From Heliocidaris erythrogramma (lineage: Eukaryota; Echinodermata; Echinoidea; Camarodonta; Echinometridae), in the NCBI GenBank assembly GCA_025617745.1, contig CM046869.1, forward strand, positions 5,542,244 through 5,606,243: a stretch of 64,000 bases of DNA, read 5' to 3'. Position 1 is the first letter of the stretch. Every line of letters starts with the position of its first letter. Position numbers and translations under genes: made by a program. Of this stretch, positions 16,564 to 64,000 are shown in pieces. The notes below the pieces were generated by a model, which searched no databases, was not told the DNA's origin, and was given only the letters and a program-made list of their open reading frames with translations.

Positions 16564-42439
<25,876 letters not shown>

Positions 42440-43445: not shown

Positions 43446-43885
43446 ATTTTCTGCTCTCAGATTTAAGTAATACCGTTTTACATTTTCCTACTACCAAAGT
43501 GGGCTTAGTCCGGCTTAATCGCTGTCAATAGATCCGCTTCCAGACCTGATAACATCCATGTTACATCAGCAAGACAGAAGAGCATCTGCTATGCGCATTT
43601 GTTTCCATGGTTTCTGCCCCCCCCCCCCCCCCGTTCCCCCCGTTCCCGCGCTATTTATAAGGTGCTTTGTTTTGTTCTGCTATATTCTATACTTTCTTTC
43701 TTTGGTATCTTTGCTTTTATCCTTCTTATCTTCTTGTCTTTTATCTTATGTTATACTTTGTTTTTTCTGCTCTCTTCTTCTCATTCTATATTTCCTTTTA
43801 ATCTTATTTTCCTTCTATCTTTCAGTATATTATCATTCGTTTTTCAAATATATCATAAAGAAAGTAAATGTGAGAAAATTACAAT

Positions 43886-43956
43886 GCCCCGACCGGGATT
43901 CGAACCCGGGACCCTGGATTACATGACCAGTGCTCTACCAACTGAGCTATCCGGGC
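43886..43956 (-). tRNA. tRNA-like gene, left arm of a palindrome (Thr-like, anticodon position TGT)
   Basis: Read on the minus strand: acceptor GCCCGGA/TCGGGGC with one G-G mismatch, D arm GCTC-AGTTGGTA-GAGC, anticodon arm CTGGT-CATGTAA-TCCAG, T arm CCGGG-TTCGAAT-CCCGG. A discriminator A would be at 43885. Aligned to eukaryotic tRNA-Thr the anticodon is TGT, but position 33 is A instead of T and the 31-39 pair is T-T. Boxes A and B look good for Pol III. It is possibly a tRNA-derived repeat rather than a working tRNA. Confidence 0.6.
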
Positions 43957-43966
43957 TCCCGCCGAA

Positions 43967-44038
43967 GCCCGGATAGCTCAGTTGGTAGAGCACTGGTCAT
44001 GTAATCCAGGGTCCCGAGTTCGAATCCCGGTCGGGGCA
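43967..44038 (+). tRNA. tRNA-like gene, right arm of the palindrome
   Basis: This is the mirror image of 43886-43956 with one difference in the T stem (CCGAG instead of CCGGG), which breaks one pair. It has the same unusual CATGTAA anticodon loop. Ten bases separate it from its mirror copy. Confidence 0.58.
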
Positions 44039-44439
44039 TTGTAATTTTCTAACATTTACTTTCTTTATGATATATTCAATTTATACTTATACTAATTTTC
44101 TTAAATAACGATAAACAGTGCATCAAATTCATGTTGATATTACCTTAAATGAGTAATGGCATCCAAGAGTGTTGCTAGAACACATCAAAATGGGTAGAGG
44201 TCACGCAAACTGATATATTCAATTTACTTCAATCCTATCAATTATGATATTTAATTACGAATTCAAATTGTCCTCTATAGAAATTCGTTGGCATGGATTT
44301 GCCCGACCGTAGAGGGAAGACCTCTCTCATTGGTAGGCCATTATATAGCGTACGCATGGAATTGGTATGGATGTACCCCCTACTCTCGATGGAAAGAGAG
44401 GGGCTATAGATGTGAGATTGTTACTTTGCTTCGACGGGA

Positions 44440-44511
44440 GCCCGGATAGCTTAGTTGGTAGAGCACTGGTCATGTAATCCAGGGTCCTGGGTTCGAATCC
44501 CAGTCGGGGCA
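44440..44511 (+). tRNA. Third tRNA-like copy
   Basis: It is 473 bp from the second copy. The T stem is CTGGG/CCCAG, a compensatory pair of changes from CCGGG/CCCGG. The D stem has one G-T wobble (GCTT/GAGC). The anticodon loop is again CATGTAA. The 3' flank (ATTGTAATTTTCTCACATTT) is shared with the other copies. The paired change hints at selection on structure. Confidence 0.58.
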
Positions 44512-53807: not shown

Positions 53808-55232
53808 CTATTCCCCTGCTTCTAAAATCAAACACAATTTGGTGATGGGTCTCACAAGGACGCTAGATTTCGTCTGGACTTCTACACTGCGAACAAATCC
53901 CTCACGGTCCGGCCTAGTACGAAGGACTTTCGCTAGCTGCCACGAATTACGTGGAAGATTGACATCGGCTACAAGCACTAGATCGCCCACTTTCAGGTTT
54001 CGCTCAGGGTCAACCCACTTCTGCCTGCCTTGTAGCTGTGGTAGGTACTGTTTAACCCACCTTCTCCAAAACACATCAGCTAAGTATTGGGCCTGTCGCC
54101 ATCGACGCCTAGCATACATGTCACCCTCCTTCGTCAATGTCGGAGGAAGTTGTGGCTTGGAGTGTAGATGAAGCAGGTGGTTCGGTGATAGTGCTTCAAA
54201 GTCATCAACACCACTAGCAATCTTGGTGATCGGTCTGCTGTTCACAATGTTCTCGATCTCGCAAAAGAGAGTCTGTAAACTCTCATCAGATAGCAGCTGT
54301 TGACTGGCTAGGGAATATAACAGCTTTCTCACAGTTCTAATTTGCCGCTCCCATACTCCACCATGGTGAGAGGCACCGGGTGGATTGAATGTCCATTGAA
54401 TATTCTTCTGGAGCATGGTGTCATTCAGCTGAGCTTTGTTCCAAGCTTCCATTTCTCTTTTCATTTCCTTCTCCGCTCCTACTAAATTAGTGCCGTTATC
54501 TGACCGAATCTCCCTCACATTGCCTCGACGAACTGCAAATCTCCTTATTGCAGCAATGCAGGAATCTGTGTCAAGGGAGTGAGCCACTTCCAAATGTATA
54601 GCTCGTATAGCCAAGCAGCTGAACATCACTCCGTATCGTTTCACCAGACTACGACCCCTCTTTACTTCAAAAGGCCCAAAATAGTCGACCCCTACTCTGG
54701 TGAATGGTGGTTCATCTGGTCGAAGTCGGTCCTCAGGTAGAGCTGCCATCTTCTGCTTCATCAGCTTTGCTCTTTGCTTGCGGCACACAACACACTTGGT
54801 AGTCATCCTCCTGACTGCTGCACCGGCACCTAGCACCCAGTACTTCTGGTGAAGAAGTGAGAGCATATGATTTCTCCCACTATGTCCTGTCATTTCATGA
54901 ATATGTCTCAGAACTAGGAGTGAAACTGGACTGTTCTTAGGGAGGATGAGAGGATGCTTAGCTTCTGCTGGAAGTGAGGATCTGTGAATTCTTCCACCTA
55001 CTCGTAGCAGTCCTCCTTCTATCTTGGCATCTAACTTGTAGATAGGACTGGTTTTCCACACTCCTGTGTACTTCGCTTGTGCACCCCTCTCCGCATTCTT
55101 GCGCCTCAATGCTTCCATCTCAGCAGGGAAGCATCTTTCTTGTTCATGCTGTAGAATCTTTATTTCTGCATTCTCCAACTCTTTGACAGTTAGAAATTGT
55201 TCCATGCCACTGTTCTCTTTAACTTGTACCAT
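53808..55232 (-). CDS. BEL/Pao integrase and C-terminal domain (remaining open frame)
   Basis: A 474-residue open frame is left. LTVKELENAEIKILQ is the pre-integrase region. H-x-H/C-x2-C zinc residues lie in HIHEMTGHSGRNH...CVVCRKQR. The integrase core has GVDYFGPF, IRSDNGTNLVG and HHGGVWERQIR (D, D, E). A C-terminal RRWRQAQYLADVFWRRW...VGDLVLVADVNLPRNSW domain fits the domain (DUF5641) that follows integrase in Pao elements. The listed start is only the first Met after a frameshift, so no natural protein begins there. Confidence 0.85.
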   Translation of the reverse strand: MVQVKENSGMEQFLTVKELENAEIKILQHEQERCFPAEMEALRRKNAERGAQAKYTGVWKTSPIYKLDAKIEGGLLRVGGRIHRSSLPAEAKHPLILPKNSPVSLLVLRHIHEMTGHSGRNHMLSLLHQKYWVLGAGAAVRRMTTKCVVCRKQRAKLMKQKMAALPEDRLRPDEPPFTRVGVDYFGPFEVKRGRSLVKRYGVMFSCLAIRAIHLEVAHSLDTDSCIAAIRRFAVRRGNVREIRSDNGTNLVGAEKEMKREMEAWNKAQLNDTMLQKNIQWTFNPPGASHHGGVWERQIRTVRKLLYSLASQQLLSDESLQTLFCEIENIVNSRPITKIASGVDDFEALSPNHLLHLHSKPQLPPTLTKEGDMYARRRWRQAQYLADVFWRRWVKQYLPQLQGRQKWVDPERNLKVGDLVLVADVNLPRNSWQLAKVLRTRPDREGFVRSVEVQTKSSVLVRPITKLCLILEAGE

Positions 55233-55495
55233 GAGGATCGACTAGCTATCAGCTTGTCCATTACATCACCGCCATGTGCACTGGATGTTGCATGCACTCT
55301 TGGCTTGACGTCTCGTTTGACTTCCTTATCCATTTCAAGGCTGGATCCACCTAACTCTGGTCCAGTAGGCCAATATTCTTCACCAAGATCTAGAAAATCT
55401 GGTCCCTCTACCCATCTCTGACTGGACTGTAGTTCATCTGCTGTTAGTCCTCTGGAGATGTCATCTGCAGGATTAGCATGGGACTCAACATGATG

Positions 55496-55985
55496 TCACT
55501 GTTGTGGTTCTGAACTTCTGCGAATAGCTGCTACCCTGTTAGCGACAAAGGTATGAAATCTCTTGTCATCATTCGTCACATACTGAAGGACGATAGTACT
55601 GTCTGTCCAGAACACAGATTTACTAATTGGGAGATCTAATTCTCTTCTAAGCATCTGATCTACATGGGTGGAGAGTGTCGCTGCCATCAGTTCCAGTCTA
55701 GGGAGAGTCATCTTGAGTGGTGCGACACGAAATTTCGCAAACACTAAACTTGTGTGTACTCTCCCTTCATCATTCATCATCCGTAGATAAGATGCTGTAC
55801 CATATGCCTTTTCAGAGGCATCTGAAAAGTGATGTAGCTGGTACTCAGTTACCCTCCCAAAATCATGAGGCTTATAACATCGGTTGACCTGAAAGCTCTC
55901 CATCTGGGGTAGGTCTGCTAGCCATCTTTGCCATCTCTGGCACTGCAGGGTTGGTACTGGCTCATCCCAACCTAACTTAAACGAA
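55496..55985 (-). pseudogene. BEL/Pao RNase H region
   Basis: The frame continues FKLGWDEPVP, QRWQRWLADL, HHFSDASEKAYGTASYLRM (RNase H Asp), PRLELMAATLSTHVDQMLRR and SVFWTDSTIVLQYV. It stops at TGA where the family has a Trp codon before HHVESHANPADD, a probable point nonsense change. Coding similarity continues beyond the stop to about 55250. Confidence 0.82.
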
Positions 55986-55986
55986 G

Positions 55987-56689
55987 TCAGTTCCTGAAGT
56001 ATAAGCTTGGCGATGCAATGCTCAATATTCCTCGTCTGGTCAGTGGTTTGACCTTGGGTGTTATCTTGTACCCAATACTATCTAGCTCAAGGTTCCAGCT
56101 CACACCTAATGCTCGCTCTACTGGCATCACTTCGTGGCTAAAATCGAGTCCCTTAACTTCCTTGGCTCTCTCTTCCATAGGAATGGAATCAATGACACTT
56201 GGACTGTTGCTAACCCATTTCGTGAGCTGGAATCCACCACTTTGAACCAGACTTCTCAGCTCTGCAGCCAGCTTGATTGCCTCTACTTCAGTCTCGGTAG
56301 ATATGAGGCAATCATCTACATAGAAGCTATGTTGTACTGCCTCTACTGCTTCAGTACTGTAACTATCCTTGTTGTCATCACTAGTTCGTTTCAAAGCAAA
56401 GCTGCAGGCACTGGGGCTCCAAGTGCCTCCAAATAAGTGGACGCACATCCTGTAAACTTTAGGCTCTCTTTCCATGTTGCCGTCTTCCCACCAGAGAAAT
56501 CGTAAGAGATCTCGATCTTCTTGTGGCACACGTACCTGATGGAACATGGCTTTGATATCTGCCATAACTGCAACCGGATACTGCCTAAACCTCAACAGTA
56601 CCCCCACCAGAGCATTGGTCAAGTCAGGTCCTTGCATCACTTCAGTGTTCAGAGACTTCCCTGTCACCTGGCGAAGCTCTAACTCCTAC
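55987..56689 (-). pseudogene. BEL/Pao reverse transcriptase fragment
   Basis: The 226-residue frame contains [33 protein letters not shown] (catalytic Asp), LRFLWWEDG, the CSFALKRT block and [10 protein letters not shown] (YVDD). These are characteristic of Pao-type RT. The 5' part is missing. After [11 protein letters not shown] the expected continuation is replaced by a jump into KLILQEL in another frame, which implies a small deletion that is not a multiple of three. Confidence 0.85.
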
Positions 56690-58920: not shown

Positions 58921-59629
58921 ACAAATTCACCATGCAAACCTTCAAATCCTATAAAGCTCAGATTGTTGTGTGCAGTTTGTATCTCTAACTGTCCCGGCGA
59001 TTTTCTGTGACCTTGTTGTTATTGCTTTGTTCGCATTTGTATTATTATTACAATATGACAATATATTATGCTCTTCCTCGATATGACGGTCAAGAGCCAA
59101 TACATCTAATCGGATTTATCATTTTTTGCTTCAAAGTCCGATATTCGAATTGTAATGAGTGTGATGGCCGTACATAACCAATCATTAAAAATATTTTGCT
59201 CTGTAGATAGGGATTCCATGACGCTGTATATCTGTATATTCACAATTATGAGCTCCAAATATTATACAATTACTTCTACAAAGAGATATTGAAATATTTA
59301 AATACTCTTAATTCACTCTGTTACTTCACAATCCTACCAACTCCTTGTCAACAAATCAAGAAGCTTTGCTTGGAGCTGTTTCCAGTGTGGTTCTAACAAC
59401 GTTGGGTCTATATGTAGTTCATCGCTGCAAGGGCTTGATTTTTCCCCAGCAAACAGTTTTATTCCTCTATGTGACAGCAGTGTTGATGGTGTTCCAACGG
59501 ATTTCCCACAAACATCTACACCTGTCCAGTAAGTAGTCATATACTAGCCACTCCTCTGCAACTCTACCAAGACAGTATGTCTTCCCAGAGTTTCTTGCCG
59601 GTACAAAAAATCCAAAGCAAGCATTCCAT

Positions 59630-60045
59630 GTTATGGTTATTAACTGCAATGGTCTTAAAGGTAGTGTTAAGAGAGCAAACTTCCAGGCAGAAATGTTCCA
59701 ATATTCACCAGACATCATTCTAGGATACGATTCAAAGTTGGATGCAGACATTTCATCTTATTCCACTCTTTCCAGCTCATCTACCTGTCCTACGCAAAGA
59801 CCGTAACCAACATGACGGTCGAGTGTTTGTTGCAACCAAAAGTTTGGTGATTGTTAGTGAATGTTCACGTCTTGATACTTGCTGCGAAATCCAGTGGATC
59901 AAATTGGAGATGCTTAATGCCACGCCCCTCTTCATTGGTAGCTTCTATTGTCCTCAAGGAAACCGACATGTTGGCATCTCAGGTCTAGAAGCTTCCTTAT
60001 CCACCCTGATGGGAAACCAACATACCCAGCTGATAACAATTAGAA
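59630..60045 (+). pseudogene. LINE endonuclease fragment
   Basis: Plus-strand frames give VINCNGLKGSVKRANFQAEM and SPDIILGYDSKLDAD, then after a frameshift near 59790 DGRVFVATKSLVIVSECSRL and ATPLFIGSFYCPQG. This is the N-terminal part of an exonuclease-endonuclease-phosphatase domain from a LINE different from the one at 44.7-49.7 kb. It is cut off before the catalytic D-x-N block. Confidence 0.6.
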
Positions 60046-61690
60046 ACATTTACTTACATTCAACAAATCAGGGAAGTTATATTTAGATATATGAAATGAC
60101 CCTTTGTTTTAAAGAATGGGCACCTAAAGCACTTTTCCGAATTTAGATGCCCGGAAATCTTACTTCATAATTATACTGAATATAGGCCTATTAATACTAG
60201 ATTTGGTTAACTCAATTATGAAGGAAAATAGCAGCATGAGAGAGCCAGGGCCCAAATTTTAGCTGGCCCCATATCCAGAATTATTCGGCATGAAAAACGC
60301 AACTTACATGCAAAATGTCATGCTTTTATGAAAAAGTGCACAATTATTTCACCAATCCACCTGACTAACGTATACCATCTAGCCTCATGACCATCAATTT
60401 ATTTTTTTTCTAATGAAAATTGCTACATATAGTTTTGAGCCGAATTTTGAGCCGAGTTTGCCGCCCTCATGTGGTAATACATGATTTAAAGCGTTTCTTT
60501 GGGAACGACTACTTGGGAAAGGGGGTAATATTTTATCAAAATTAAAAAAAAATAGTTAGCTACCCAATGTTTCGTAATAAATAATATTTGAATGTTTTAT
60601 TTATTTCCTCTTCACATGGCTGTAATATTTCATAATAAATCTGTGACACATTTGATTCATTTCATAAAGTCACCTCACGTGTATTACACCCACAATTAGT
60701 CAATTAATCTCACATGTACAACTTACTACGTCTACGGCTGAAATTCCTCCAAAAGAATAGCGAAAACATGGCCTTGCAATTCATGCCTGATACTCATACA
60801 GATGATAAATTTCTTGAAGACAATCTTCTATCCTCCGAAGACTGGGGTGAGAATGGAGTATGATTTAATGACAGAATGTTTGTGAATGTAAATAAAAAGG
60901 TTATTTCCTTATTCGATAGCTCCGTGAGTTACTCCCCGAGCCTCGGGGCTACATTAACAGCAGTGACAGCCTTCGCGCTTGGGCACGTTGCACTGCCACC
61001 GCACGCGCTCGTTGACGACTGCACTGGAGCTGCGACCTGTAGTGTAGGCCTAGGCCTAGTGTAATTTGACGCCTTTGAGTCGATGAGTAATTATCGAATT
61101 AGAAAAGAACTATCATTTCAAACTTATTAGATAGTCACAGTCATTCTCTTAAGTTGGTCTGGTTGTAAACTAACTAGGCCTGGCTATACACCGCGATGTA
61201 CAAGCCGCGTTAGGCTAGCGAGTAGTGTTGCGAACTGTGAAGTGTGAGTGTGACTAGGCTAGGCCTACAATTACAAATTACAAAAAGTACAAAGTGTGAC
61301 AAGATGTACATGGGCAATTCCATGAAAAATGTTCACTTTAGTAAAAAAATGAAGTTTGCAATTGCACTTAAATTCTCAAATATTCTTGAAAAGTAATGTA
61401 TAAATGTTCATTTTCCAATAGACAAATCATTAAACTGACAAATTTTCGTATTTTTTTCCACCAGTGAAAATCTAATATGATGTATCGCAATAACACAAAA
61501 ATGTGGCTATTTTTGAAGAGTTTATTCTTCCTGTCTCTAATGAAGGCCTAAAATCTACTGGAGGTCTCCTTCAACTTTTAAACAGTAGTTCAGTGTACAT
61601 ATCAACAGAAAATCACATGGAATGTTTATATCATTCATCAATTTTCGAGGCATTGATCCTCAAAATTGTGTGATTTCTTTATCATTAGAA
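60046..61690. other. Mostly non-coding flank
   Basis: AT-rich apart from the CpG-containing patch at about 60920-61040, whose 62-codon frame (60876-61064) matches nothing I know. No RNA gene or repeat is recognised. Confidence 0.35.
60770..60850 (+). other. Possible small first coding exon
   Basis: An ATG at 60770 opens an acidic frame MALQFMPDTHTDDKFLEDNL ending ...SSEDW at GACTGG|GTGAGA, a fair splice donor. Unspliced, the frame stops after 32 residues. A CpG-richer patch follows (60,920-61,040). I cannot link it to any gene. Confidence 0.2.
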
Positions 61691-61691
61691 G

Positions 61692-63377
61692 TGTCATGTC
61701 CGTTACGTTTTTCACTTAAAGTTTTCATAGCCAACAGGAAATTTGTATTTGGTTACTGTAAATTCAGTTTCTATGTTAGAACTAAATCCCCTTACATGTG
61801 TAGCAACCATTTTTCCTTACCACTGTCAGTTTTCAAGCAAATGGCGTAACGGACATGACACTTTATATACGACAAGTGGCAGAAACCACATTGTGGGCTC
61901 CATTTAATAGATTGATTATTATTTTCAATTGCTTGAGGATAGTGGGATGTTTCTAGATACTAGTGACTCATAAATATAAATCTGCTTGTTATATTTAAGA
62001 CACAACAACAAGCAGATTTTCCAGTTTACCCATGGAAGTCTGTAGATTTCAGATGATCTTGCTAGCCCTGTTACATGTATGTAATCCCATTCCAACATCT
62101 TGATCATGATTGATGACCAACATGCAGCAGCAGGTATGTCCCTGTTTATTTACATAGTGGATTACTGAAGCCAAGACAATGCAGTTCCACTATTGGCCAT
62201 CTCCCTAGCACTTTTCCATGATAACTTAGACCTCATTTCATAATGACACTGGTTTTGTGGAACTGCTTTAGTGCATGTTGCAGATACATGTAGTTAACTT
62301 TCTTTCTTTAAAACTGATGTGAATCATTCAGGGCATTTTCATGATATGTTCAAACTTTTGATCAGGTCTGGTTCATTAAGTTTTCTTTGCCTCAAAGCTT
62401 GAGACGTGCTCTACTTTGTTGTATGTTGTTGTGGTACTCTAAGCATTATATTCCATGCATTGTAGTATAGTTGTTAGATCACTAAAACCTGCAAAAAAGA
62501 ACTTAGATGTGTTACTATTTAACATTTGGTAGTAGTACTGAGCTGTTAGTTTTGTCTTTTTTATGCCAAATGTTTTTTTGAAAGAAAGAAGTGAAGATAT
62601 GGTTCACTTCACAAGGGTGTCATGTCCGTTACGCTAGCATATTAATACTATCTGAGAAATATTAGCCTATAAAGGAGAAAACACCATAGCATCAACTAAT
62701 AATTTGTTCTGTTTTGGTATGGAGGGTAGTATTAACTAAAATGTATCATAAATTGTAGCTAGCTGGTGCAGAAGCAAGTTTGCTTTATTTTTTATATCTT
62801 GTGTAAACATTGAAAAACCAACCCTTCTAAAATTACAGAAATATATGAGATAGTACAGAATACCAGTTATGATGTGTGTCCCTATCTTTCAACCTTACTA
62901 TATGAACAATAAAATATCTGCCATATCTCGTAATAAAACAAATATGTCCGCTCACAAAAAGTGGACAAAACTGTCATGTCCGTTACGCTCAATGCGTCAT
63001 GTCCGTTACGCTACATTCTGAGCTATAAAAAAAGAATGCAATGTAAAACTAATCTCAAACATGAATTTATGATTACAGCATGACTTTAAGTTTTAATTAA
63101 TACCCAAACCAGGTTCATTCTATCCCAAAACTCACAGGAATTTTCATAATAAAAAGTAGGTTAAAAAGCCTTGTCCATTTTGTGTCATGTCCGTTACGCT
63201 CACAACGAGTGCATTTTCTCCACGACCGTTCAATAAAATGATGTGAAATTTCATGAGTATATCCCTGATAGTCAAATGTGTCTGATAAACTCAATAAAAA
63301 TTGTTTGGAGACTGCCAATTCTATTGTGTGATGTTTTGAATTACAAAAAACTGTCTGAATGTCATGTCCGTTACGCT
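61692..63377. repeat. Seven dispersed copies of TGTCATGTCCGTTACGCT
   Basis: Copies at 61692-61707 (partial), 61844-61861 (reverse), 62618-62635, 62972-62989, 62996-63012, 63183-63200 and 63360-63377. Six are on the + strand and one is inverted. The DNA between copies shows no shared sequence by eye, so only the 16-18-bp core is repeated. Confidence 0.85.
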
Positions 63378-63581
63378 GGAATTGACCACATGCTGATGCC
63401 TGGCTTGCTTTTCGCTGAAACTACATATATTTTAAATTGAAGAAGTAAACTAAAACTTCAACTATGGATTGATTGCATTACTTACGTTAAATTTGGTTAA
63501 CCAACCTACAACTTACCCAAATTTCCAAAACAATGATTTATCATGTTTATTGCGTCTGCCCACAGTTAGCCAGGACTCCGA

Positions 63582-63643
63582 CTAGCTTTGTGAGTGTAAA
63601 AGAAAAAAAATTTGGCTATACGCCTTTTACATCACAAAGCTAG
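63582..63643. repeat. Short inverted repeat
   Basis: CTAGCTTTGTGAGTGTAAAAG (63582-63602) and its near-perfect inverse (63624-63643) are separated by about 21 bp. It could be a hairpin or the two ends of a tiny decayed element. Confidence 0.55.
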
Positions 63644-64000
63644 GTGTTTTTTCCGCCAATCTAATTGCGCACGGGTTAACAGGACATGGAAAATGCCCTG
63701 AAATAACACTTTCCTGATAACTCCTGCGACCGACAGGTCCTTCAGGCTTCACCACAGCATCTCCTAGGGAAACTTTTGGAATGATTATTTGTTTATGATT
63801 ATACATATTTTACAAAAGAATACAAAAAAAAACATAAAAATTTCAGAGAACTCACAAGTGTTTGTGTCCATGCCTCCACTTGTCATGCAGATTTAAAATG
63901 GCAGCTGCGTGCGATTATTGAAACTATACGTTGCCAACAGCGCACGCAGTCGCTCGGGATTGGATTTCAATACATGTACATCCAACAAAGCAATCACAAT

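Follow-up and report, generated by a model that had tools for sequence, protein, structure and literature searches.

An 18-bp word repeated within 1.7 kb of a 64-kb window and the DNA transposon that almost certainly carries it

The locus and the repeated word

The window (that is, the whole 64-kb stretch of DNA analysed here) corresponds to C17:5542244-5606243 of a genome of 1.06 Gb in 26 contigs, and it was this same genome that was searched in all the genome-wide comparisons. To judge from its carboxylesterase-family exons and reverse transcriptases, the window reads as eukaryotic DNA resembling that of an animal. On its minus strand it holds a 1382-codon frame with reverse transcriptase, RNase H and integrase domains (18558-22706), which we take to be a Gypsy-type LTR retrotransposon, and frames with DUF5641, integrase zinc-binding and reverse transcriptase domains (53808-56667), presumably BEL/Pao-like. 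The plus strand harbors carboxylesterase-family exons at 16564-17070 and 38232-38780, aligned with the beginning of the profile and with a portion further along it, as well as frames at 59537-60086 that by eye resemble a LINE endonuclease, with no such Pfam hit. Three tRNA genes or tRNA-derived repeats, one of them on the minus strand, lie in 0.7 kb (43885-44511), within inverted repeats of about 110-120 bp. Near the right-hand end of the window is the element with which this work is concerned, embedding an array of the 18-bp word TGTCATGTCCGTTACGCT (Table 1).

Table 1. Coordinates of the element, its ends and the copies of the word (positions of the window)
Feature	Position	Strand	Remarks
Left target-site duplication ACAT	61308..61311	.	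Read directly
Whole element, one copy of a dispersed non-autonomous DNA transposon (almost certainly)	61312..63387	+	2076 bp; ends common to other genomic copies
5' terminal inverted repeat GGGCAATTCCA	61312..61322	+	238 exact genome matches of the 21-bp 5' end
Motif copy 1	61692..61709	+	1 mismatch
Motif copy 2, inverted	61843..61860	-	1 mismatch; one 21-bp unit here, two in tandem in L047
Motif copy 3	62618..62635	+	
Motif copy 4	62972..62989	+	
Motif copy 5	62995..63012	+	1 mismatch; 23 bp after copy 4
Motif copy 6	63183..63200	+	
Motif copy 7	63360..63377	+	End 10 bp short of the 3' terminus
3' terminal inverted repeat, TGGAATTGACC on the plus strand	63377..63387	-	233 exact genome matches of GTTACGCTGGAATTGACC
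Right target-site duplication ACAT	63388..63391	.	Read directly

A search of both strands of the window allowing up to 3 mismatches returned seven copies of the word, each with 0 or 1 mismatch, and no eighth one. The sequence-only reading, which had pointed out this cluster, was thus right about the number of copies, while some of its details have to be amended: the full 18-mers begin one base before the 61844 and 62996 that it gave (at 61843 and 62995), the close pair is separated by 23 rather than 24 bp, and no copy exceeds one mismatch, where variants of one to three bases had been described. Its statement that chance cannot explain the cluster is borne out by the finding that 0/100 shuffles reach seven copies (chance expectation 0.00), which rules out a chance origin. 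The same applies to its preference for a non-coding role: in a six-frame reading the sites occupy differing frames among many stops, and the comparison of the six frames of 59501-64000 with Pfam yielded only CLIP1_ZNF and DUF4210, both below their cut-offs. A viral or prokaryotic source of the word was also discarded, only single hits per record having been obtained (in 2, 10 and 23 records). Literature searches with the word (11- to 18-base forms; CCGTTACG) and with the word of the terminal inverted repeat gave, judging by title, nothing on a transposon or on such a motif among the matches listed.

The DNA between the copies had been described as not being a tandem repeat and as lacking conserved surroundings. 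The flanks were compared within the window for 20 of the 21 motif pairs, leaving out copies 4 and 5 (62972/62995). With the word as anchor, none of the 40 flank comparisons scored above 3, the 95th percentile of the null from the same region being 3; the flanks fail to align, which excludes a tandem array or a decayed satellite, and the spacers are not decayed copies of one repeat unit. In unanchored local comparisons, 4/40 scores lay above the 99th percentile of the null (44.0). One of them, 59 (61692/61843), is trivial, since each flank contains the motif of the other; the remaining three (45, 46 and 49) all involve the copy at 63360. Because these three scores beat the 99th percentile of the null, a weak and patchy similarity may exist among the motif flanks inside the window copy. 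A short match, ATGTCCG----CTCACAA, between 62944 and 63186, noticed by eye and partly computed, is uninformative.

The element and its family across the genome

The ends of the element are sharp: it starts with GGGCAATTCCATG... and finishes with ...GTTACGCTGGAATTGACC, so that its termini read GGG...ACC, and the two 11-bp terminal inverted repeats (TIRs), GGGCAATTCCA and GGTCAATTCCA (the reverse complement of TGGAATTGACC), are identical at 10 of 11 positions, with one mismatch. The target-site duplications (TSDs) are of 4 bp and of varied sequence. Both ends could be placed in 15 copies, and in 14 of these, the window copy among them, the duplications match, L046 being the exception; the 5' end of another copy, L049, gave no match by exact word. 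Two of the features by which class II elements of the TIR order are recognized, inverted repeats at fixed ends and a duplication of constant length, were found.

The sequence-only reading had proposed counting the word over the genome, and the count gave 1,750 exact 16-mers (861 forward and 889 reverse) versus 0 and 1, respectively, for the reversed pattern used as control. The list of 100 places, which covers contig C1 alone, resolves into 15 clusters, with 97 of the places, and three single sites; these 15 clusters, among the matches listed, keep the order and the orientation of the sites observed in the window, four of them being stretched by inserts. The window copy aligns over about 2.1 kb with all 15 loci, in one piece at 11 and in two at four, and the 11 single-piece alignments show 95.0-98.1% identity. 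Hence, the claimed lack of conserved surroundings holds within the window copy, whose anchored flanks are unalike, but not between copies, where the same order and near-identical spacers recur elsewhere.

The exact ends, 238 at the 5' side and 233 at the 3' side, indicate a family of about 240 copies. Ends were paired within 30 kb, among the matches listed, using 100 5' ends and 94 3' ends; five 3' ends on C9 (the listed 5' ends extending to C8) and one on C7 (29129744), with no listed 5' end nearby, were left out of the pairing. Of the resulting 81 pairs, still among the matches listed, 66 span 2,001-2,105 bp, two are shorter and 13 exceed 2.2 kb. Eleven intact copies differ from the column majority by 0.10-1.49%, a low divergence that points to a recent spread of the family. 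On the basis of the termini, the 4-bp target duplications, the hundreds of ends and this low divergence, we consider it nearly certain that the element in the window is a copy of a young non-autonomous cut-and-paste DNA transposon.

Typical copies of the family carry eight motif sites. The window copy has seven, because at copy 2 it retains a single 21-bp unit, whereas the intact copy L047 possesses two in tandem. The sites span 1.7 kb of the 2.1-kb element, and the motif is absent from the 5' terminus, no site within 7 mismatches occurring in the first 380 bp. The sequence-only reading had regarded the possibility that the word is the end of an abundant transposon as fatal to its own proposal, and this is essentially what emerged: such an element carries the word as a repeat, both subterminally and internally, with the last copy 10 bp before the 3' terminus. 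A perfect 13-bp hairpin is also present inside the element, at 61978-62019 (z-score -6.0 for 61970-62027).

No transposase or autonomous relative was found in the intact copy, in the long copies that were opened or in the relatives that were scanned. Indeed, L047 contains no frame of 100 codons. Six of the 13 paired copies longer than 2.2 kb were inspected in full or in part (L045, L046, L054, L056, L073 and L074): the inserts of L045 and L056 have no frame of 100 codons, and L046 and part of L073 gave no Pfam hit. The insert of L054 includes a DDE_3 fragment below the cut-off (E 0.022) and was read as a foreign insert, presumably Tc1/mariner; L074 (C6:47871641-47879719) is an element copy holding a retrotransposon insertion with long open frames (L074:1-5001) and a reverse transcriptase domain (E 1.5e-15), also read as foreign and which we assume to be DIRS-like. 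Pfam searches retrieved no transposase from the six frames of L070-L072, where L071 gave one sub-cut-off hit (Fuz_longin_2), nor from the three frames of the stored strand of L061 and L066. To our knowledge, no Sola profile is among those used in these searches.

Conservation of the word and its possible role

The word is rich in CpG: in 61692-63377, this dinucleotide accounts for 15 of the 119 dinucleotides inside the motif copies versus 7 of the 1566 outside, and the family majority has 17 CpGs in its eight sites versus nine in the other 1947 bp (o/e 0.17). Given this surplus, the founder of the family seems to have lost its CpGs elsewhere but to have kept those of the word. In the young family itself, differences are about equally frequent in the motif (6/1548) and in the spacers (94/21329), so that the motif is not clearly better kept, as expected since little time has passed.

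A better keeping of the motif than of its flanks is seen between families only. With a 5'-end pattern lacking the word (and therefore blind to the motif), 21 older relatives were found, eight of which were fetched. Five of these eight (L062, L063, L064, L065 and L068) have the motif inside the element, in nine sites with up to 4 mismatches, and in L065 two sites are 23 bp apart, as copies 4 and 5 of the window element are. At the same threshold, L061 and L067 have no motif inside the element, and the sole match of L066 lies upstream of its 5' end. In plus-strand blast alignments with the young element, for which five relatives were informative, 109 of 122 motif cells match at non-CpG positions versus 504 of 675 flank cells (Fisher p = 2.6e-4, an optimistic value because alignment cells are not independent), and 27/40 versus 3/10 match at CpG positions. 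The relatives found through the word itself (L058-L060), which are a biased sample, gave 76/84 for the motif and 419/551 for the flanks.

The position of the word with respect to the ends is also recurrent. In six older relatives (L058-L060, L062, L063 and L068) it stands beside a 3' end resembling TGGAATTG, and L064 has a likely 3' end without it. A further relative, L069 (L069:208-628), is a 421-bp foldback with arms of about 200 bp and the TSD TCTA. At either end of it the motif lies 10 bp inward, and both arms contain the motif once more (0 to 3 mismatches). Other close inverted pairs of the L069 arm occur across the genome (52 matches; 40 of 504 candidates scored). The retained CpGs of the word, its better keeping in the older relatives and its location next to the ends suggest that it serves a function in the element.

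The cluster is almost certainly the internal and subterminal repeat array of the transposon; by analogy with known systems, the word is probably the recognition site of a transposase or accessory DNA-binding protein acting in trans. Such a protein would be supplied by an autonomous relative, and the several sites per element, one of them beside the 3' terminus, might serve to recruit it and assemble it on the element. This agrees with the DNA-binding or insertion-related role favored by the sequence-only reading. Counting against a binding site of this kind are the lack of a transposase among the sequences scanned, an array that is wider than usual, the motif-free 5' terminus, the three of eight motif-blind relatives that are themselves motif-free, the missing word at the likely 3' end of L064 and the similar divergence of motif and spacers in the young family.

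The same sites might instead bind a host transcription factor (Myb-like or zinc-finger), either driving transcription of the element or acting as the target of a repressor. A sharply bounded word of 18 bp is what a protein with a long DNA-binding site would require, the sites are in mixed orientation and internal as well as terminal, and the core contains TAACGG, which we assume to resemble a Myb site, as had been remarked. However, a position beside the 3' end in six older relatives and at both ends of L069 is what would be expected for a transposase and is not needed by a promoter, and the intact copy L047 has no 100-codon frame to express; overall, we judge a host factor unlikely.

The word might even have no function, being a mosaic of ancient small duplications that became fixed in the founder element before it amplified. 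Two sites that amount to simple tandem units of 21 bp, and the about equal divergence of motif and spacers within the young family, would fit this idea, which nevertheless appears quite improbable in view of the CpGs surviving mostly inside the word and of the better keeping of its non-CpG positions in the five informative older relatives. Equally doubtful, in our opinion, is that a word arrayed over most of the body lets a protein coat the element or phase chromatin across it, protecting its CpGs; the sites toward the 3' end stand partly at nucleosome-like steps (354, 188 and 177 bp), and if this were true, the word would do more than mark the ends of the element.

As for the RNA motif, the clustered enhancer and the silencer nucleation site that had been proposed, they found no support. 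The sites at 61692 and 61843, inverted with respect to each other, do pair in minimum-energy folds of 61680-61872, and might form a transcript hairpin whose small-RNA product would be complementary to the remaining sites; yet such folding is to be expected of any 18-mer with an inverted copy, and no Rfam match reached the gathering score in 60.5-64 kb (six were below threshold), so that an RNA role is very improbable. A near-perfect hairpin with a stem of 12 + 7 bp lies just outside the element, at 63582-63643 (for 63570-63655, z-score -4.7 against shuffles on both strands); it might represent a short foldback element or the precursor of a small RNA. No Pfam domain above the cut-off was detected in 59501-64000 or in L042:5201-10000, which starts about 270 bp past the right end of the element; therefore, no host gene can be tied to the insertion. 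An enhancer or silencer specific to this chromosomal site, which a cluster of identical sites in non-coding DNA might suggest, has a negligible probability, given the recurrence of the array at many genomic sites with target duplications and the absence of Pfam domains above the cut-off in the 1.8 kb to the left and in about 5 kb to the right.

The odd motif cluster is in this way settled as the signature of a mobile element, a cause of an ordinary kind, and it teaches some caution, in that a long word repeated between unlike spacers can be a transposon when a single copy is in view. The 18-bp word, together with the 11-bp TIR and the 4-bp TSD, also offers a handle for tracing the autonomous element responsible for the recent mobilization of the family.

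Comparison with known transposons

The superfamily to which the element belongs can be approached through its ends. Tc1/mariner was rejected, since the TA target duplication given in the cited part of PMC10741241 contrasts with the 4-bp duplications of varied sequence found here; likewise, the 5'-TG...CA-3' termini and the TIRs of 40-270 bp that the same part reports for Ginger differ from the GGG...ACC termini and the 11-bp TIR of this element. Sola elements, on the other hand, are described there as having 4-bp TSDs and TIRs of 11-1124 bp (PMC10741241). The element has a 4-bp TSD and an 11-bp TIR falling within the reported range, the latter being a weak criterion. It resembles Sola (PMC10741241, PMC3627910) in its 4-bp TSDs, in being AT-rich and in having TIRs that range from 11 bp upward and vary among relatives (11 bp here, arms of about 200 bp in L069); the DDD transposase that defines Sola was not found among the sequences scanned. 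The signature is therefore best described as Sola-like, an assignment that is unproven.

The hAT elements have TSDs of 8 bp, unlike the 4-bp ones of the window element, which would lie outside hAT if that length is defining. In the cited passages of PMC3260210, the AAACGG subterminal repeats of Ac, located in the 200 bp at each end, bind the Ac transposase cooperatively. As in Ac/Ds (hAT), there are 11-bp TIRs, non-autonomous elements of varied size and a repeated word; unlike what those passages describe for Ac/Ds, the motif is of 18 rather than 6 bp and extends over most of the 2.1 kb, and the TIR is another one (PMC3260210). In the En/Spm (CACTA) system, the subterminal repeats are recognized by TnpA, as stated in the cited part of PMC2613891, and the element shares with it a repeated word near the ends and their asymmetric arrangement. 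Its ends, however, are GGGC and not CACTA, its TSD is of 4 and not 3 bp, and sites are also placed deep inside (PMC2613891); without the CACTA termini and the 3-bp duplication given in that same part, membership in CACTA was rejected. By analogy, the element may well work as Ac/Ds and En/Spm do, without being by its ends a member of En/Spm, and its motif array is wider and longer than the subterminal repeats with which it was compared.
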